64,000 bases of DNA from Micromonospora kangleipakensis. Its GTDB lineage: Bacteria > Actinomycetota > Actinomycetes > Mycobacteriales > Micromonosporaceae. The notes below the pieces were generated by a model. It made no database searches, was not told where the DNA came from, and was given only the letters and a program-made list of their open reading frames with translations. The DNA lies in NCBI RefSeq assembly GCF_004217615.1, contig NZ_SHLD01000001.1, positions 4,898,001 to 4,962,000 on the forward strand, in the 5' to 3' direction. Positions within the stretch are counted from its first letter, which is position 1. Every line of letters starts with the position of its first letter. This document shows, in pieces, positions 49,075 to 57,705 of the stretch. The position numbers and the translations under genes were made by a program.

Positions 49075-49989
49075 TTATGCGGCCTGGGCCTCCAGGGCGC
49101 GGGTCTCTGATCGTTCGTAGTCGATGGGTGAGCGCCAGTCGCAGACGGAGTGCCGGCGGCGCTGGTTGTAGAAGTCGGTGATCCAGGTGGCGATCTTCAG
49201 GCGGGCTTCGGTGCGGGTGCGGAAGTGGCGGCGGTGGACGTACTCGACCTTGATGGTGGAGAAGGTGGCCTCGGCGACGGCGTTGTCGAAGCAGGACCCG
49301 ACCCGGCCCATCGACTGGCGTACCTTCCATCGGGCGCAGGCCCGGGCAAAGTCGGCCGAGGTGTACTCGCTGCCCCTGTCGCTGTGAAAGATCACCCCTT
49401 CCACGCGGCCGCCGCGGGTGACGGCGGCCATGTTCAGCGCTGCGACGACCAGCCCGGCGTCGTGGTGGGCGCCCATCGCGTAGCCGAGGATCCGGCGCGA
49501 GTACAGGTCGATGACAGTGGCCAGATAGAGCTTGCCCTCGTCGGTGCGGATCTCGGTCATGTCGCCGCACCAGGCGACATCCGGCGCCGGCGCGGTGAAC
49601 ACCCGCTTGACCAGGTCCGGTGCGGCCGGACGTTTGCCCTGGCGGGTCAGGCTGCGCCGGCGGCGCTTGATACGGGCGGCCAGGCCGAACTCGGCCATGA
49701 GCTGCGCGATCGTGTTGTCGGAGACCTGCCAGCCCTGCTCGCGCAGCTCGATCCCGATGCGCGGGCTGCCGTAGGTGCCGCCCGAGTCGTCGAAGACCTT
49801 CGTGACCGCGGCTGCCAGCCGGGCACGCCGATCATCGCGGGGCGTTGGCGGCCGGTCGCGCCATTTGTAGAACCACGACTCGGACACTCCGAGGGCCCGG
49901 CAGGCGATCGCGTGCGGCACGTCATGCTCGGTCCTCTGGGAAGCGATGAACCCGGCCACGCTCACCGGCCCGTCGCTTCCTTGACCCAC
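49075..49989 (-). CDS. IS3 transposase OrfB
   Basis: A 304-residue DDE integrase. HTH_21-type start ([20 protein letters not shown]), rve core with Asp in [18 protein letters not shown], Asp in [16 protein letters not shown] and Glu in [18 protein letters not shown]. It ends [18 protein letters not shown]. It overlaps orfA by 28 bp in a different frame, so an OrfAB fusion by -1 frameshifting is the expected active form; the real OrfB may start later than ATG 49989. Confidence 0.9.
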
Positions 49990-50261
49990 AGGACCACGGA
50001 TCGCTTGAGGACATCACGCTCCATCGCCAGCTCCGCGTTCTCCCGCCGCAGCCGGGCCAGCTCCGCCCGCTCGTCCTCCGACAACTGCCCGGCAGCGGCC
50101 TCACCGCGAGTCTCGCGGTCCTTCTTCACCCAGTTGGCAAGGGTGCCGTCGTTGATCCCCAGGTCACGCGCGACCTGCGCGATCGACTTCCCGGTCTCCC
50201 GCACGATGCGCACCGCGCCCGCCCGGAACTCCGGATCGAACTGGCGTCTCGTCTCAGCCAT
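49962..50261 (-). CDS. IS3 transposase OrfA
   Basis: A 99-residue HTH protein: [40 protein letters not shown], then a leucine-zipper-like [20 protein letters not shown]. It overlaps orfB. Complete. Confidence 0.9.
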
Positions 50262-50380
50262 GAACCTCTATCCCTCAAGCTCTGGCCTCCACGCTACGAG
50301 GGGAATGGCACAAGGCCGCTTGCTGCCCACAGTGCGCAGGCGGATCCCGGGTCGAATCCGCAGCTGATCGGGCCGGCAGG

Positions 50381-50572
50381 TTAAACGACAAGCTTAGTGG
50401 TGTCGTCGCCGGCGTGCTCGGTGTCGTGCATGCGTTTGGCGAGCTCCGCCCAGCGCTCGTGCGGCGCGGCGACGAACTCCATGAGAATGGCAGCGCTCTC
50501 GACGACATTCGAGCCGGCCTTGCTGAAGAGGGTGAAGAACTTCTCGTTCCGCGGCTGTATCCGTAGGCCCAC
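50381..50572 (-). pseudogene. DUF47 (PhoU-like, Pit accessory) protein, N-terminal fragment
   Basis: GTG 50572 with AGGAGG upstream; the frame reads IQPRNEKFFTLFSKAGSNVV, ESAAILMEFVAAPHERWAEL and MHDTEHAGDDTT, matching the first 60 residues of DUF47 proteins, which normally have about 205 and are co-transcribed with the phosphate transporter pit. The frame then stops at LVV. The rest of the gene and pit are missing; the IS3 element lies 70 bp away and may have mediated the deletion. Confidence 0.75.
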
Positions 50573-50704
50573 GGGAGATCCTCCTGGGCCGACAGTACCG
50601 CCGTACGCGGCGCGACGCCGCTTCGCGGGGAGGTTGTCCGTCCAGCGGACGATCAAGGGAAAGGGAAGTACCCACTCCCTTCCACTCTCAACATATACCG
50701 CACC

Positions 50705-50746
50705 GGGGGACTTGCGGCAAGACCCGGGTCGTGCCGCAGAATTGCC
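50705..50746 (+). promoter_or_regulatory. Rifamycin-associated element (RAE)-like palindrome
   Basis: TGCGGCA (50713-50719) and TGCCGCA (50732-50738) are symmetric around GACCCGGGTC (50721-50730), so the region is one palindrome centred at 50725. It starts GGGGGACTTGCGGCAAGA. This closely resembles the RAE known upstream of rifamycin-inactivating genes and helR in actinomycetes, quoted from memory. It sits 38 bp before the ATG of a decayed rifampicin glycosyltransferase-like gene and upstream of helR, the context in which RAEs occur. Confidence 0.75.
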
Positions 50747-50830
50747 GGCCGAGGCCAGAACCTACGGAAATGGGAGTCGCGAAATGCGTGTGTTGTTGTC
50801 GACGATCGGGTCGCGCGGGGACGGGGTTTC

Positions 50831-51232
50831 ATGCTGACGTGCATGGTCTTCACCCAAACAGAACTCGACTACCTGGCCACGCAGCGCATCGGGCGGCTGG
50901 CCACCGTCTCGCCCGACGGGCAGGTGCAGAACAACCCGACCAACTTCTTCGTCGATGCCGGCACTGGCACGATCGTCATCGGCGGGGGCGCGCTGGGCTC
51001 GTCGAAGAAGTTCCGGAACGTCCAGCAGGGCAGCACGGTCGCGTTCGTCGTGGACGACCTGGCGACGGTCGATCCGTGGGCGCCCCGAGGCATCGAGATC
51101 CGGGGCACGGCGGTGGCGCTGACGGACCACGAGCCGCCCCTGCCGTACCTCTCTCGGGAGATCATCAGGATCACACCTACCAAGATCGTCTCGTGGGGGC
51201 TGGACGGGCCGCGAGCGAGCCGTACGGTGTGA
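50831..51232 (+). CDS. PPOX-class F420-dependent oxidoreductase
   Basis: A 133-residue protein from ATG 50831; ATG 50843 (MVFTQTELDYL) is an alternative start nearer the family consensus. Split-barrel motifs: LATQRIGRLATVSPDGQVQN, NPTNFFVDAGTGTIVIGGGA, KKFRNVQQGSTVAFVVDDLA and the end RITPTKIVSWGLDG. It is intact and sits inside the glycosyltransferase relic, directly after its first 13 codons. A transcript started at the RAE-like promoter would cover it. Confidence 0.87.
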   Translation: MLTCMVFTQTELDYLATQRIGRLATVSPDGQVQNNPTNFFVDAGTGTIVIGGGALGSSKKFRNVQQGSTVAFVVDDLATVDPWAPRGIEIRGTAVALTDHEPPLPYLSREIIRITPTKIVSWGLDGPRASRTV

Positions 51233-51565
51233 AATCTCGCCAGGACGGGGCTACACAAGCCTGAGCGGGTGGGAGATGGCGACGTAGCACACGCGGTGGA
51301 GCGGGCCTGCGCAGGCCGCTCGCCATGCTGTCGCGCCCGGACCGGTTGGGCGACGTGCCGGTCGTGGTCATGCTGCCGTCGCCGCACCACCCGCCGCACC
51401 CGCTGCCGGGCCGGCCGTTCCCGCCGGACGTGACCGACAACCGGTGCTGTGGGACCTGGACGCCCAGAGCTATGACGCGCTGTTCGGCGCGGCGCTCAAC
51501 ATCCACCGGGCGTCGATCGGCCTGCCACCGGTGGACAACGTCCGCGACCACGTCTTGGGCCGCGC

Positions 51566-51742
51566 GACGACGCGTACGCGCAGGTCGTCGCGGCCGTGAC
51601 GGGCGCCGCGTTCCGCACCGCGATGATGCGCCGGGCCACGGCGGGCGACGGCGCGGCCCCACTCGCCGACCAGGTGGACGAGGCGTTCGCGATGCTCGCC
51701 GGCGGCCTGGCCACACCCACCCCTACCACCGAGGAGAGCTGA
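51566..51742 (+). pseudogene. TetR-type regulator, C-terminal fragment
   Basis: The frame DDAYAQVVAAVTGAAFRTAM, MRRATAGDGAAPLADQVDEA, FAMLAGGLATP fits the end of a TetR ligand-binding domain. No DNA-binding domain remains; it joins piece 2 of the glycosyltransferase at about 51560. Its TGA overlaps the ATG of the MFS gene, the usual regulator-transporter coupling, so both came in together. Confidence 0.65.
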
Positions 51743-53397
51743 TGACCGTTCAACCCGAGCCGGGCGCGGCCGGGACCCCGGCGGCGATCGCGCCGGACGA
51801 CCTGGCCGTGGCCGGCGTGCCCGCGGCCGCCGAGGCGGCCGCCCGCGACGAGGTGCCCGCCGAGCAGTCCGGGCGGATGTCGCACGCCGAAGTGATCCAG
51901 GCGCTGTCCGGCCTCATGCTCGGCATGTTCGTCACGATCCTGGCCTCGACGATCGTCTCCAACGCGCTGCCGCGCATCATCGCCGACCTCGGGGGCACCC
52001 AGTCGGTCTACACCTGGGTGGTCACCACCGAGCTGCTGTCGATGACCGCGACCGTGCCGCTCTGGGGCAAGATGGCCGACCTCTACAGTAAGAAGCTGCT
52101 GATCCAGCTCTCGCTGAGCCTGTTCGTGGTCGGCTCGCTGATCGCCGGCTTCGCGCCGAACGTCACGCTGCTGCTGGTCAGCCGCATCGCGCAGGGCGTG
52201 GGCGCCGGCGGCATGGGCGCGCTCGCGATGATCGTGATGGCCGCGATGATCCCGCCGCGCGAGCTGGGCCGCTACTCCGGCGTCTTCGGCGCGGTGTTCG
52301 GCGCGGCCACGATCGCCGGCCCGCTGATCGGCGGCGTGCTGGTGGACACCTCGTGGCTGGGCTGGCGCTGGTGCTTCTTCATCGGCATCCCGTTCTCGCT
52401 GGCCGCGATCGCCCTGCTGCAGAAGACGCTGCACCTGCCGGTCGTCCGCCGGCCCGTGAAGGTCGACTGGCTGGGCGCGCTGCTGATCATGGCCGGCGTC
52501 TGCACGCTGCTGATCTGGTCCAGCCTGGCCGGTCAGCACTTCGCCTGGGGCTCGTGGCAGACCGCGGCGCTCGTCTGCGGCGGCGTGCTCCTGCTCGCGC
52601 TCGCGGTGTGGACCGAGTCGCGGGCCGCGGAGCCGATCATCCCGCTCGGCATCTTCCGCAACCGCACGGTAGCGCTGACCGTGGTGGCCAGCACGCTGGT
52701 CGGCGTGGCGCTGTTCGGCGGTACGGTGTTCCTGTCGCAGTACTTCCAGGTAGCGCTCGGTAAGTCCCCGACGGTGGCCGGCCTGATGAGCCTGCCGATG
52801 ATTTTCGGTCTGCTGGTGTCCTCGACGGTCGCCGGACAACTCATCACGCGGTTCGGGCGCTGGAAGGCGTACCTGGTGGTGGGCTCGCTCGTGATGACCG
52901 GCGGGTTCCTGTTGCTCAGCACGATCGACGCGAAGACCGGCGTGGTGCTGCTGGCGGCGTACCTGGTGGTGCTCGGGATCGGGGTCGGCATGCTCATGCA
53001 GAACCTCGTGCTCGCCGCGCAGAACGACGTGCCCGCGGCCGAGTTGGGTGCGGCCACCTCGACGCTCACCTTCTTCCGCAGCATGGGCGGCGCGATCGGG
53101 GTGAGCGCGCTGGGCGCGGTGCTCACCAACAGGGTGACCTCGCTCTTCGTCGACCACTTCGGTGCGGCGGCGACCGGGGGAGGCAGCGCCAAGGTGCCCG
53201 ACCTCGAGACGCTGCCCGCGCCGGTCCTCGCCGTGATCCGCGACATCTACGGCACGGCGACCTCGGACCTGTTCCTGGTGGCCGCGCCGATCGCGTTCCT
53301 CGCCGTGCTCGCGGTGGTCTTCATCAAGGAGAAGCCGCTGTCCACCCTCACCGGCGACGAGCGCCGCGCGCGGGAAGCGGCGGCGGCACCGCACTGA
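51742..53397 (+). CDS. MFS drug transporter, DHA2 (14-TM) type
   Basis: A 551-residue protein; ATG 51742 with GAGGAGAG upstream. After a 45-residue cytoplasmic leader come 14 membrane helices. Motif A is LWGKMADLYSKKLLIQLSLS, motif C-like VFGAVFGAATIAGPLIGGVL is typical of antiporters, and AAQNDVPAAELGAATSTLTF is the DHA2 loop. EmrB/QacA relatives export drugs with proton exchange. Complete, followed by a hairpin terminator. It sits inside the glycosyltransferase relic, together with a TetR fragment. Confidence 0.93.
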   Translation: MTVQPEPGAAGTPAAIAPDDLAVAGVPAAAEAAARDEVPAEQSGRMSHAEVIQALSGLMLGMFVTILASTIVSNALPRIIADLGGTQSVYTWVVTTELLSMTATVPLWGKMADLYSKKLLIQLSLSLFVVGSLIAGFAPNVTLLLVSRIAQGVGAGGMGALAMIVMAAMIPPRELGRYSGVFGAVFGAATIAGPLIGGVLVDTSWLGWRWCFFIGIPFSLAAIALLQKTLHLPVVRRPVKVDWLGALLIMAGVCTLLIWSSLAGQHFAWGSWQTAALVCGGVLLLALAVWTESRAAEPIIPLGIFRNRTVALTVVASTLVGVALFGGTVFLSQYFQVALGKSPTVAGLMSLPMIFGLLVSSTVAGQLITRFGRWKAYLVVGSLVMTGGFLLLSTIDAKTGVVLLAAYLVVLGIGVGMLMQNLVLAAQNDVPAAELGAATSTLTFFRSMGGAIGVSALGAVLTNRVTSLFVDHFGAAATGGGSAKVPDLETLPAPVLAVIRDIYGTATSDLFLVAAPIAFLAVLAVVFIKEKPLSTLTGDERRAREAAAAPH

Positions 53398-53406
53398 GTC
53401 GCGGGA

Positions 53407-53435
53407 CGCCTGGCCCGTCGGCCACGGGTCAGGCG
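53407..53435 (+). terminator. Hairpin after the MFS gene
   Basis: An 11-bp stem GCCTGGCCCGT / ACGGGTCAGGC (one G-U) with a 5-nt loop, 10 bp after the MFS stop. Confidence 0.6.
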
Positions 53436-53747
53436 CCGCGCGGGGCGTACATGATGGCGGCCACGCCGCACCGACCACCCGTGGCTGGCGGCGGACCCGA
53501 TCCTGGGCCTGTGGCAGGAGCCGGCGGACCTCGACGTCGTGCAGACCGGCGCGTGGATCCTGCCGGACGAACGCCCACTCCCGGCCGAGTTGGTGGCGTT
53601 CCTGGACGCCGGCATATACGTGGGTTTCGGCAGCATGCCCATGCGCGCCTCGAAAGACGCCGCCGGGTGGCCATCGAGGCGATCCGTGCGCAGGGCCGCC
53701 GCGCACTCGTCTCCCATTGCAAGCGACCTCAGATCGGAGCTGATGAC

Positions 53748-55904
53748 GTGAACCCCCTGACTACCAGCGTGTTTGACCTTCCCGACCACCTCTCCCCCAA
53801 GGCCGACCCGACGCTGATCGCCCGCGACGAGCAGCACTTCGCGGCCATCGCGGAGAGCCTCGAGCAGGTGGACGCCGACCTGTCCGACCTGCTCGACGCC
53901 GCGCGCAAGGCACCCGGCGGCAAGGGCCGGCAGGCGGTGGACCGGGACCAGGAGGTCCGCCGGCTGACCGCTCGCCTGCGACAACTGCGTCGCTTCGGTT
54001 TGGACCTGTGCCTGGGACGCATGGTCAGCGCGGACAACCCCGAGCCGGTGTACATCGGACGACAGGGCCTCACGGACAGCGCGGGTCGTCGGCTGCTGGT
54101 CGACTGGCGCTCCCCGGCGGCTGAGCCGTTCTTCGGAGCGACCCACGCCAACCCGATGGGTCTGGCCAGCCGCCGCCGCTATCGCTGGACCCGCGGCCGG
54201 ATCAGTGACTACTGGGACGAGGTGTTCACGGCGGACGGGTTCGAAGGGCACGCCGCCGCGCTCGACGACCAGTCGGCCTTCATCGCCAGCCTGGGCGGCA
54301 ACCGGTCGAACCGCATGCGGGACGTGCTCGGCACCATCCAGGCCGACCAGGACGCCATCATCCGAGCGGGATCCCGTGGCGCTCTCGTCGTCGACGGCGG
54401 TCCGGGTACGGGGAAGACGGTCGTCGCGCTGCACCGCACCGCCTACCTCCTCTATTCCGACCCTCGCCTCGGTCACCGCCGGGGCGGCGTGCTGTTCGTC
54501 GGTCCGCACCAGCCGTACCTGGCCTACGTCGGCGACGTCCTGCCCAGCCTCGGCGAGGACGACGTGCAGACCTGCACGCTGCGGGACCTCGTCGCCGAGG
54601 GAGCCGCAGCCGCGATCGAGACCGGCCCGGAGGTGGCCCGCCTGAAGTCGTCCGCGGACCTGGTGAAGGCGATCGAGACGGCCGTCCGGTTCTACGAGGA
54701 GCCGCCGACCAAGGGGATGACGGTCACGACCGACTCGTCCGACGTCTGCCTGAGCGCCGACGATTGGGCCGAGGCGTTCGAAGCACGAGAACCCGGTACC
54801 CCGCACAACGAGGCGCGCGACCAGATCTGGGAGGAACTGCTCACGATCCTGGTGGACAAGCACGACGGCGACGAACCGGCCGACCTGGTCCGCATGTCGC
54901 TGCTGCGGAACAAGGATCTGCGCACGGCCTTCAACCGCGCGTGGCCGCTGCTCGAAGCGGCCGACCTCGTCGGAGATCTGTGGTCGGTACCCGCCTATCT
55001 GCGCAAGTGCGCTCCCTGGCTCAGCCCCGACGACGTTCGGACGTTGCAGCGCGCCGACGCCCAGGCCTGGACGGTGTCCGACCTGCCGCTCCTGGACGCG
55101 GCACGGCAGCGGCTCGGCGACCCGGAGGCGTCCCGACGTCAGCGTCGGCACGACGCCGCGGTCGCCGCCGAACGCGAGCGCATGGCCAGGGTCGTCGACG
55201 ACCTGATCGAGGCCGATGTCTATGACGACGGCGAAGGCGTGCTGACGATGCTGCGCGGACAGGACCTGCGGGACGCCTTGGTCGACGAGTCAGGACTGTC
55301 GGGCGCCGACCCGGACCTGCTCGCCGGCCCGTTCGCGCACATCGTCGTGGACGAGGCTCAGGAACTGACCGACGCTGAGTGGCAAATGTTGCTGCTCCGC
55401 TGCCCGTCCCGAAGCTTCACCATCGTCGGGGACCGCGCCCAGGCCAGGCACGGGTTCACGGAGTCGTGGCAGGAACGGCTCGAGCGGATCGGGCTCGACC
55501 GGACAAACCTGGCCTCCCTGAACATCAACTACCGGACGCCGGAAGAGGTCATGGCGGAAGCCGAGCCGGTCATCCGGGCCGTGCTCCCGGACGCCAACGT
55601 GCCGACCTCCATCCGCAGCAGCGACGTCCCCGTCGTACACGGATCTGCTTCTGATCTGAGCTCGATCCTCGACACCTGGCTCGCCGCGCACGCCGACGGG
55701 ATCGCCTGCGTCATCGGCGATCCCACGTTCCGGGCGACGTCCCGCGTCCGGTCGCTGACCCCGGAGCTGTCGAAGGGGCTCGAGTTCGACCTGGTCGTCC
55801 TCATCGACCCAGAGGCATTCGGCACAGGCATCGAAGGAGCGGTCGACCGCTATGTCGCGATGACCCGAGCGACCCAGCAACTCGTCATCCTCACGAGATC
55901 CTGA
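53748..55904 (+). CDS. helR: HelR-type RNA polymerase-recycling helicase
   Basis: A 718-residue UvrD/Rep-like ATPase. GTG 53748 has GGAG 8 nt upstream. The N-terminal part (about 1-100) has an antiparallel helical arm (ARDEQHFAAIAESLEQVDAD). Next come LLVDWRSPAAEPFFGATHAN, Walker A GGPGTGKT (217-224), Walker B HIVVDEAQELTDAEWQML, and motif VI-like YVAMTRATQQLVILT at the very end. HelR binds RNA polymerase through its channels, removes stalled enzyme from DNA and displaces rifamycins. It follows the RAE and the glycosyltransferase relic, the known helR context. Complete, so probably functional. Confidence 0.88.
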   Translation: MNPLTTSVFDLPDHLSPKADPTLIARDEQHFAAIAESLEQVDADLSDLLDAARKAPGGKGRQAVDRDQEVRRLTARLRQLRRFGLDLCLGRMVSADNPEPVYIGRQGLTDSAGRRLLVDWRSPAAEPFFGATHANPMGLASRRRYRWTRGRISDYWDEVFTADGFEGHAAALDDQSAFIASLGGNRSNRMRDVLGTIQADQDAIIRAGSRGALVVDGGPGTGKTVVALHRTAYLLYSDPRLGHRRGGVLFVGPHQPYLAYVGDVLPSLGEDDVQTCTLRDLVAEGAAAAIETGPEVARLKSSADLVKAIETAVRFYEEPPTKGMTVTTDSSDVCLSADDWAEAFEAREPGTPHNEARDQIWEELLTILVDKHDGDEPADLVRMSLLRNKDLRTAFNRAWPLLEAADLVGDLWSVPAYLRKCAPWLSPDDVRTLQRADAQAWTVSDLPLLDAARQRLGDPEASRRQRRHDAAVAAERERMARVVDDLIEADVYDDGEGVLTMLRGQDLRDALVDESGLSGADPDLLAGPFAHIVVDEAQELTDAEWQMLLLRCPSRSFTIVGDRAQARHGFTESWQERLERIGLDRTNLASLNINYRTPEEVMAEAEPVIRAVLPDANVPTSIRSSDVPVVHGSASDLSSILDTWLAAHADGIACVIGDPTFRATSRVRSLTPELSKGLEFDLVVLIDPEAFGTGIEGAVDRYVAMTRATQQLVILTRS

Positions 55905-55944
55905 CTGGGGTTGACCCGCTTTGACGGACCGGGTCGGTGAAGTG

Positions 55945-56042
55945 TCAGGCCACCATACTGCCAGTCGGGCGGGCGGTTGCCTCGTAGGCGGCGGGGCTGA
56001 GGTAACCGAGGGTGCTGCGCGCGGCGCAGAACGCCCTGCGGT
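55945..56042 (-). pseudogene. IS3 transposase C-terminal relic
   Basis: The minus strand encodes STLGYLSPAAYEATARPTGS ending in a stop at 55945, the end of an IS3-type OrfB (HSxLGYLSPxEYE). The adjoining TGACACTTCACCGACCC may be the old terminal repeat. Nothing else of the element is left. Confidence 0.65.
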
Positions 56043-56085
56043 CCGTCCAACGACCCTGGCCGGGGACCGCACCATCGGGTGATGT

Positions 56086-56134
56086 GTAACCGGCGGGTTG
56101 CAGATCGGCCGATGATGTGCAACTGTGGAGTTGC
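56086..56134. promoter_or_regulatory. Two ArsR-type operator copies
   Basis: GTAACCGGCGGGTTGC (56086-56101) and GCAACTGTGGAGTTGC (56119-56134) are both inverted repeats preceded by GATGT, spaced 33 bp apart, directly upstream of the SRPBCC-ArsR operon. The second is a perfect 6-4-6 palindrome. Binding by the operon's own ArsR protein is inferred. Confidence 0.6.
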
Positions 56135-56152
56135 GGATGAAGGGAGACAAAC

Positions 56153-56590
56153 ATGAGTGACCGCATCGAGCGCTCCGTGCTCATCGAGGCACCACTGGAC
56201 CGGGTCTGGGACCTGGTGACCGAGCCCGGGTGGTGGGTGCCGAGCCAGACCCCGGCCCCGATCGACCGGACGCCGGGGGCCATCGCAATCCGCGAATCCG
56301 AGCAGTGGGGCCGATTCCCCGTGCAGTTGGTGAGCTTCGACCCGAAGACCTACGCCGCATTCCGGTGGGCCAGCACCAGCCCGGGAGAGGATCTCACCGG
56401 CGACAACACCACGCTGGTCGAGTTCCACCTGGCCAGCGAGGCCGAGGCCATCAGGGTGACCGTGGTCGAGACCGGGTTCGCCGCCCTGCCCATCCCGGAG
56501 GAGGCGCGCCGCAAGAGTTTCGACGGCAACACCCAGGGCTGGGGCGAGCAGCTGGACAGTCTGCGCGACCGGGCGCAGCAGCCGGGATGA
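56153..56590 (+). CDS. SRPBCC-domain (AHSA1-like) protein
   Basis: A 145-residue protein; ATG 56153 with AGGGAG 6 nt upstream. The SRPBCC/AHSA1 fold is seen in IERSVLIEAPLDRVWDLVTE, FPVQLVSFDPKTYAAFRWAS, LVEFHLASEAEAIRVTVVET and a long C-terminal helix TQGWGEQLDSLRDRAQ. Such proteins bind hydrophobic ligands. It is coupled to the ArsR gene by an ATGA overlap, a very common actinobacterial pair. Confidence 0.9.
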   Translation: MSDRIERSVLIEAPLDRVWDLVTEPGWWVPSQTPAPIDRTPGAIAIRESEQWGRFPVQLVSFDPKTYAAFRWASTSPGEDLTGDNTTLVEFHLASEAEAIRVTVVETGFAALPIPEEARRKSFDGNTQGWGEQLDSLRDRAQQPG

Positions 56591-56907
56591 CCACCGCGGT
56601 CGAGGTCGACCGGGTGTTCGTGGCGCTGGCCGATCCGACCCGGCGGCGGGTGCTCGAGCTGCTCGGGCGCTCGCCGAGCACGGCCAGCGCGCTGGCCCGG
56701 GAGCTGCCGGTGACCCGGCAGGGCATCCTCAAGCACCTCGGCGTGCTGCGCGCCTCCGGCCTCGTGACCGGCGTACGGGCCGGCCGTGAGGTGCGGTTCC
56801 AGGTACGGCCGGAGTCGCTGGTCGCCACCGCGTCGTGGATGACCAGCCTGGCCGCCACCTGGGACGAGCGGCTGGCCCTGCTCAAGCGCCAGGCCGAACA
56901 GTCCTGA
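56587..56907 (+). CDS. ArsR-family regulator
   Basis: A 106-residue winged helix: VDRVFVALADPTRRRVLELL, ALARELPVTRQGILKHLGVL, VTGVRAGREVRFQVRPESL. No metal-site cysteines, so it belongs to the SRPBCC-linked group. Its ATG overlaps the SRPBCC stop. It probably autoregulates the pair through the two operators upstream. Confidence 0.92.
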   Translation: MTTAVEVDRVFVALADPTRRRVLELLGRSPSTASALARELPVTRQGILKHLGVLRASGLVTGVRAGREVRFQVRPESLVATASWMTSLAATWDERLALLKRQAEQS

Positions 56908-56937
56908 TACCGCAACGGCAGGTGATGAGCGACGCTG

Positions 56938-57153
56938 ATCGGGCAGGTACGGGTGGCCGCAGGCGACACCCCGAACGCCGTCGACTGCTGCGAGGGCGCC
57001 CTCGCAGCACTGCGCGCCATGGACGACATCTCCGCCGAGCTCGACCTTCTGGCCGACCATGGCGACATGCTCCTGGCGTCCGCAAGAAGCTCGCGTCGCT
57101 TGAATGAAATGCCTGGTTGCGATGAGGGCGGTGGTGATTCCGCGTACAGTTGA
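56938..57153 (+). pseudogene. TPR-protein fragment
   Basis: A short frame reads GDTPNAVDCCEGALAALRAM DD, resembling one TPR unit of AfsR/SARP-type proteins, and loses similarity on both sides. No start or ribosome-binding site. Confidence 0.35.
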
Positions 57154-57156
57154 CGG

Positions 57157-57705
57157 GTGGCGATCACGACCGGCCGGTTGCGGTTCGGCCCGAACAACGG
57201 GCGGATGCTACTGCGCACCAGCCGCAAGGGTGTCGGCTCGACCGTCGGGCACGACCTGACCATTGAGGTGACCGACTGGTCGGTGGAGCTGGACGTTCCC
57301 GAGACCGGGCCGGTGGACGCCACCGCGACGGCCCGCGTTGAGTTGGGATCCTTGGCCGTGCGGGAGGGCACCGGCGGTGCGCGACCGCTGACCGACAGGG
57401 ACCGGGGCGAGATCGAGAACAACGCCCGGCGCACGCTGGAGGTCGGTCGCCACCCGACGGCCACCTTCGAGTCCAACCGCGTCGTCACCGGCGACGACCA
57501 CGCCACCATCAGCGGAACGCTCACTCTGCACGGGGTCGCCGCTCCCATCGACGTCGAGGTACGCGAGGTGACGCCCGACCGGTACCGCGCCGCCACGGTG
57601 GTGACCCAGTCGGCGTACGGAATCAAGCCGTACTCGGCCTTTCTCGGCGCCCTCAAGGTCCGTGACGACGTCGAGGTGGAGATCGAGGTCGACCTCGGAC
57701 GTTGA
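57157..57705 (+). CDS. YceI-family protein
   Basis: A 182-residue protein from GTG 57157; TACAGT lies 6 nt upstream, suggesting a leaderless mRNA. The YceI lipocalin-like barrel is seen in VGSTVGHDLTIEVTDWSVEL, RGEIENNARRTLEVGRHPTA and ISGTLTLHGVAAPIDVEVRE. There is no signal peptide, unlike proteobacterial YceI, so it is cytoplasmic; members bind isoprenoids or amphiphiles. Complete. Confidence 0.92.
   Translation: MAITTGRLRFGPNNGRMLLRTSRKGVGSTVGHDLTIEVTDWSVELDVPETGPVDATATARVELGSLAVREGTGGARPLTDRDRGEIENNARRTLEVGRHPTATFESNRVVTGDDHATISGTLTLHGVAAPIDVEVREVTPDRYRAATVVTQSAYGIKPYSAFLGALKVRDDVEVEIEVDLGR

Follow-up and report, generated by a model that had tools for sequence, protein, structure and literature searches.

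A rifamycin-associated element, a fragmented rgt-type gene and an intact helR in Micromonospora kangleipakensis

How does helR come to lie behind a rifamycin-responsive element with the remains of a different gene in between? The question is raised by a 64,000-nucleotide stretch of Micromonospora kangleipakensis DNA (assembly GCF_004217615.1, contig NZ_SHLD01000001.1, positions 4,898,001 to 4,962,000; hereafter the window, in whose own numbering positions are given). There, a rifamycin-associated element (RAE) is followed by pieces of an rgt-type (rifamycin glycosyltransferase) gene and then by a complete helR. The locus probably descends from an RAE-rgt-helR operon that repeatedly loses rgt while the RAE and helR persist, and its vacated slot here would have taken up two further genes, for an F420-type PPOX oxidoreductase and a major facilitator superfamily (MFS) transporter. 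We place the probability of this reading at roughly three in four. It is carried by the order of the parts, a conserved promoter, a complete helR, junctions shared with relatives, and purifying selection on HelR and MFS.

Promoter block, rgt remnants and helR

The RAE is described as a 19-bp palindrome that is needed for rifampicin induction and overlaps the -35 element of a second promoter (excerpts of PMC10719064), and the excerpted text of PMC12802891 presents the mechanism behind it as still open. In the window, the core CTTGCGGCAAG (50711-50721) is flanked by GGG and CCC arms. The site has the defining features of an RAE, a 19-bp palindrome 5′ of rifamycin genes, as judged by comparison with 163 other unique helR leaders and not with the original published consensus. 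Of the 61 columns shared by 80% or more of these leaders, the window leader matches 60, and the next best place on either strand of the window reaches 32. The conserved block runs from TATA across the RAE as far as CANAAT. The palindrome reported ahead of the locus in the initial annotation is thus borne out, as is its placement of a conserved promoter before a broken rgt-type gene and an intact helR. The promoter names P1 and P2 (Table 1) are taken from the excerpts of PMC10719064, and the CAGAAT box would fit the second promoter that overlaps the RAE.

The bare 11-base core, with its middle base left free, occurs at six sites in the genome compared with five for a control pattern, which is chance level. 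Only two sites in the genome have G/C arms on both sides of the core, one in the helR leader and the other ahead of rph. Four further bare cores were rejected: one has an incomplete arm, and three belong to a repeat family without arms (G000:C1:3583342, 3599592, and 3649130). Just 3′ of the RAE (50711-50742), GGGTCGTGCCGCAGAAT approximates the complement of the RAE, with similar sequences in many leaders; this could provide a second half-site or allow a more extended hairpin.

Between the RAE and helR, the rgt-type gene survives only as in-order, frame-broken pieces, F1 to F4 (Table 1). F1 begins 73 bases from the first base of the RAE core, within the spacing of 73-78 bases seen for complete rgt-type genes elsewhere (12 of 12). 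F2 and F3 match Rgt (NF000354) and no other NCBIfam family, at adjoining profile positions (to 192 and from 192, respectively); the NCBIfam alignment of F2 covers positions 155-192, which a genome search extends to 135-192. Neither piece has a Pfam match. A chance origin of the pieces was rejected on the strength of this exclusive match and of the series of leaders in relatives. The in-order fragments of an rgt-type gene first noticed here are upheld, and the pieces comprise F1, F2, F3, and a fourth short one, F4. A complete Rgt frame of about 400 residues and more than 800 bits is absent from the window, where the pieces lie in different frames and score 46-64 bits. Ahead of helR there is no clear rgt sequence from beyond about position 273 (one low-identity alignment reaches 289), and the genome holds no other Rgt match at E 1e-10. 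Compared with an intact RAE-controlled rgt, the window shares the RAE, the leader length, and the first 13 codons, but its coding sequence is in pieces and the last third is missing. Among plasmid records, 71 match 50600-53760, none covering 80%.

Behind these pieces helR is complete, as the initial annotation had it, and looks functional. NF041254 is its best family and is covered from 1 to 706 of 706 positions, with a score far above the cut-off (Table 1). Alignment to M. smegmatis HelD (6yxu) places the tested motifs intact (Walker A GGPGTGKT, DWRSPA, and DEAQE). Ratios of non-synonymous to synonymous change (dN/dS) of 0.31-0.39 indicate purifying selection. At the tip of the PCh loop stands DDGEG, more frequent than any other form in a set of 109 HelR sequences. 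E484 and D485, acidic tip residues in M. smegmatis, are needed for resistance (excerpts of PMC10719064); their aligned counterparts in the window are G and E, so that one acid is kept in place. The RAE-controlled helR genes of S. venezuelae (SVEN_6029) and M. abscessus (MAB_3189c) share the 5′ RAE and encode a class II HelD/HelR protein with a PCh loop (PMC10719064 and PMC8655204, in excerpt), but in the window helR is preceded by a leader that contains rgt remnants and two additional genes.

Table 1. Features of the RAE-helR locus, in window positions.
Feature	Position	Strand	Remarks
P1 (upstream promoter), putative -10-like TATACC	50694..50699	+	block TATA.CGCAC conserved in helR leaders
RAE, imperfect 19-bp palindrome GGGACTTGCGGCAAGACCC	50707..50725	+	TTGCGG within, possible -35 of second promoter
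P2 (downstream promoter), putative -10-like CAGAAT	50737..50742	+	CANAAT frequent in helR leaders
F1, rgt codons 1-13	50784..50837	+	now a 17-codon mini-reading frame; stop overlaps upstream PPOX start (ATGCTGA)
PPOX class F420-dependent oxidoreductase, intact	50831..51232 (or from ATG 50843)	+	TIGR04023 family member, 152.2 bits, cut-off 85.6 (scanned from 50843)
F2, rgt remnant, profile positions about 135-192	51384..51560	+	NF000354 E 3.6e-12 on 51441-51596; also tblastn
TetR-type regulator, 3′ stump	51566..51742	+	PF17754 E 8.8e-4, 19.6 bits, under cut-off 22.7
MFS drug exporter-like gene, intact, 551 aa	51742..53397	+	PF07690 158.2 bits, over cut-off 33.4
GC-rich hairpin behind MFS, possible weak terminator	53407..53435	+	no T tract; z -1.4; 19/200 shuffles fold as well
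F3, rgt remnant, profile positions about 191-257	53467..53658	+	NF000354 E 1.8e-17; also tblastn
F4, about 16 residues of rgt	53667..53714	+	directly after F3, other frame
helR, complete, 718 aa	53748..55904	+	GTG start, assigned by reading; NF041254 1296 bits, cut-off 750

The interval between RAE and helR in relatives

The leader census took in 181 helR upstream regions: the window, 100 other genomes of the genus, and 80 named loci, which lean to close relatives because they are the best 80 of 547. With G020, G073, and G145 set aside (helR split or 5′ end missing), 101 of the 104 helR-bearing genus genomes are represented, window included. By a rule that required G/C arms and allowed a single mismatch in the core, an RAE is present in 170 regions (164 distinct) and absent from 11, one of them on a contig that begins 284 bases before helR (L049). 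Nine of the 100 other genus genomes have helR without an RAE by this rule (L195, L198, L199, and L201-L206).

A tblastn search with 13 complete rgt-type proteins found rgt at E<=1e-6 in 36 of the 170 RAE-to-helR intervals, in the sense direction (12 complete and 24 truncated, with L098 duplicating L005), compared with none antisense and none in reversed controls. Seven more truncated cases fall between 1e-6 and 1e-4; calls in this weaker range are uncertain, since reversed controls yield one match at 1e-4 and six or seven at 1e-3. At E<=1e-6, truncated rgt occurs in Micromonosporaceae, Streptosporangiaceae, and Streptomycetaceae, and once in Actinopolymorphaceae (L062, residues 1-26). What had been taken for a rare snapshot of resistance remodelling therefore recurs in the helR leaders of many actinomycetes. 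Residue 1 of rgt lies 63-68 nt behind the RAE core in the 12 complete loci; among the 24 truncated ones, this distance is 62-66 nt in 18. In 28 of the 170 leaders, helR itself occupies the usual rgt start position: with helR starts assigned from homology to the window, the distance from the beginning of the RAE core is exactly 73 bases. Stops of truncated rgt frames 1-4 nt before helR in several relatives were discarded as evidence, because the conserved stretch before helR gives stops in more than one frame.

The complete loci belong to 11 Streptomyces and one Actinomadura (L016, L019, L024, L032, L033, L034, L039, L043, L044, L048, L052, and L073). Their order is that of the window, with rgt as one reading frame of about 400 codons. 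In the six of the 12 that were scanned, NF000354 is the best and sole NCBIfam family matched at E<=1e-50, which makes these genes Rgt-like; that they act on rifamycin is suggested by the RAE and by similarity. One further locus (L046) carries a complete rgt-type gene with its own RAE divergent from helR, and its helR leader holds an N-terminal remnant of rgt. Also, an RAE-like core lies near an rgt-type gene, away from helR, in six of the ten best-matching loci of the genus (L137, L138, and L142-L145), which appear to be stand-alone, RAE-linked rgt genes.

Seven relatives share junctions with the composite in the window, which is the fullest version seen: G049, M. sicca (G094), G001, G141, G080, G024, and Dactylosporangium fulvum. 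The MFS gene is retained whole in G001 and D. fulvum. G049 keeps F1, PPOX, F2, the tetR stump, and part of MFS; M. sicca keeps F1 and PPOX plus the 3′ tail of MFS and F3/F4; G080 keeps the 3′ tail of MFS; and G141 and G024 keep small pieces across the junction of F2 with the tetR stump. All seven look like deletion derivatives of the window composite. G117, G078, and G102 have a plain truncated rgt instead.

A quick HelR tree of 109 rows was labelled by the state of rgt (12 complete, 30 remnant at E<=1e-4, 65 none, and 2 unscored). The remnant label is scattered, with 24 changes on the tree, at least 10 of them forced by starred branches; many branches are weak, and such counts do not separate gain from loss. 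G001 and G024 do not carry the label, as their remnants become apparent only on comparison with the window.

Across actinomycetes, the stretch between RAE and helR may be an exchangeable slot, from which the founding rgt was deleted independently many times so as to leave helR directly behind the RAE, and which the Micromonospora group refilled with PPOX and an MFS exporter that thereby joined the rifamycin regulon. We regard this wider claim as evenly balanced. The locus and its relatives supply a natural series of intermediates, and with it an account of how helR came to follow a rifamycin-responsive element immediately in many soil bacteria. No paper among those listed, and no excerpt of PMC10719064, PMC12802891, PMC8655204, or PMC13246000, describes rgt remnants before helR, but the original RAE and HelR papers lay outside that search, so absence from print is not established.

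Two additional genes and competing explanations

The initial annotation proposed simple decay of the locus. The rgt-type gene is indeed broken, but two complete foreign genes that the annotation lacked, PPOX and MFS, stand among its pieces, the latter with a signal of purifying selection. By binomial tests on Nei-Gojobori counts, dN/dS for MFS is 0.31 between the window and G001 (P 1.6e-7), a clear signal, and 0.54 between the window and D. fulvum (P 0.011), a modest one. Against the DHA2 family (TIGR00711) MFS scores 207.6 bits, under the cut-off of 230.2. MFS-type matches (E<=1e-120, weaker paralogues included) occur in 128 of 160 genus genomes; ten such loci that were read are 72-79% identical and have no RAE core near MFS within the 3-4.6 kb inspected in each. 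In seven of 11 other loci, sequence adjoining the orthologous MFS matches the tetR stump at 51-62% identity. The PPOX ATG overlaps the stop of the F1 mini-reading frame in the window, L005, and L108, which suggests translational coupling. From their position, both genes may now respond to rifamycin, and the place of an F420-type oxidoreductase gene and an MFS exporter gene behind an RAE makes such a role directly testable.

The composite could have arisen as follows. The first 13 rgt codons would have stayed behind the promoter, PPOX would have replaced codons of about 14-130, the tetR stump and complete MFS would have been inserted at about codon 192, and codons after about 273 would have been lost up to helR. 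Later deletions between the rgt start and helR would keep the promoter and shorten its distance to helR. Rifamycin exposure would then switch on the RAE promoter, with a transcript predicted to read through PPOX and MFS to helR. HelR would pry rifamycin off RNA polymerase, Rph expressed from the other RAE would phosphorylate the drug, and MFS may export rifamycin or an unrelated compound. With HelR for protection and Rph for inactivation, Rgt would be dispensable.

Several observations weigh against descent from an RAE-rgt-helR operon with a refilled slot. On the HelR tree, remnants show no clustering beyond that of shuffled labels (79 of 500 shuffles as low), and the position of the window itself has weak support. 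The complete relatives' genes score 498-599 bits, below the Rgt cut-off of 800 (six of 12 scanned), and rifamycin use by the founding enzyme is therefore only presumed. Synonymous divergence (dS) between the window and D. fulvum is 0.07 for MFS and 0.26 for HelR, a difference that points to interior segments being exchanged by recombination. The gap from RAE to helR is nearly 3 kb and contains a GC hairpin. Two of 11 remnant carriers in the genus (G024 and G078, with the weak case G019 excluded) are without rph; an rgt-type gene with an RAE lies elsewhere in G024, and the G078 genome is 87% complete. Finally, selection on PPOX is weak or absent (P 0.015 in one pair and 0.45 in another), and relatives have lost PPOX or MFS freely.

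These losses are what would be expected if PPOX and MFS were neutral hitchhikers on their way out, with only the RAE and helR of consequence, and we treat this as a serious competitor somewhat short of even odds. MFS is gone in M. sicca, G080, G141, and G024 and truncated in G049, PPOX is all or mostly gone in G001, D. fulvum, G141, G080, and G024, and the feeble selection signal on PPOX agrees with such a fate. Set against this, three lineages have an uninterrupted MFS frame of 550-551 codons, and both pairs tested show fewer non-synonymous changes than neutrality would give. For PPOX, the frame is open in three genomes, all of which have the overlap between its upstream start and the F1 stop.

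If instead helR had been cut off from the RAE, by the hairpin 3′ of MFS or by distance, it would be expressed from elsewhere and the RAE would now serve PPOX and MFS. The hairpin itself and two loci (L042 and L108) that lost it through deletions placing MFS right next to helR speak for such a separation, which we nevertheless consider unlikely. A terminator between MFS and helR is not supported, as the hairpin is not beyond shuffles, lacks a T tract, and is absent from a terminator scan that gave two hits where 1.4 were expected, the sole plus-strand hit lying inside helR. Nor was a sigma-70-type promoter pattern found in 50200-56200, in a scan that also misses the RAE promoter.

The order of events could also be reversed, helR having invaded rgt. 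The observation behind this idea is that in six Streptomyces loci (L014, L016, L019, L026, L034, and L035) the helR stop is directly followed by rgt from about codon 217, so that helR lies between rgt pieces or copies; in L014 and L035 only the rgt N-terminus is upstream of helR, and the L034 and L016 matches are short. The downstream check covered 79 named loci and the window, and a seventh match, in L021, lies 1.7 kb off. Among these 80 regions, none has rgt split by helR at one codon. Furthermore, a complete rgt-type gene stands upstream of helR in 12 loci, three of the six included, and later rgt pieces are upstream of helR in the window and in L005, L028, L030, L036, L099, and L116 (weakly in L020), which leaves invasion distinctly improbable compared with erosion of rgt from an rgt-helR operon. 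An assembly or sequencing artefact, which frame breaks within the rgt pieces might suggest, has a negligible chance of being the cause, given a genome in one contig and the same junctions in separate genomes of other species.

Rph, rpoB and neighbouring genes

The initial annotation had also concluded that the inactivating enzyme was lost. This holds for Rgt but not for drug inactivation as such, because the genome (one contig, 7.27 Mb) has a second RAE, followed by an intact gene for an 865-aa Rph that scores 1657 bits against a cut-off of 999. The rph leader has a similar promoter block, matching 51 of the 61 conserved columns; the locus is separate from that of helR, encodes a different enzyme, and has 331 bases from RAE core to start. 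Among genus genomes, rph is found in 89 of 104 with helR and in 24 of 56 without (P 4e-8, uncorrected for kinship). It is missing from 4 of 7 Rgt genomes compared with 43 of 153 others at a 470-bit limit for Rgt (P 0.20), and from 7 of 10 compared with 40 of 150 at a 400-bit limit (P 0.007). Both limits were set after the scores were seen, no genus genome reaches the curated cut-off of 800, and the family search gives matches in two of 14 control genomes as well, so that opposition between Rgt and Rph within the genus is suggestive only. The genome has no match to Arr. One rpoB gene was found, and its rifampicin-contact region has the D, H, and S that we take to be the main contacts.

Upstream of the locus, an IS3-family transposase gene (49075-50261, minus strand) adjoins a 91-aa reading frame (50381-50656, minus strand). 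The latter has no Pfam match, resembles a phosphate-transport regulator by eye only, and has matches in eight other helR regions, one of them a duplicate. Downstream of helR, 56153-57705 holds AHSA1-type, ArsR-type helix-turn-helix, and YceI-type genes.

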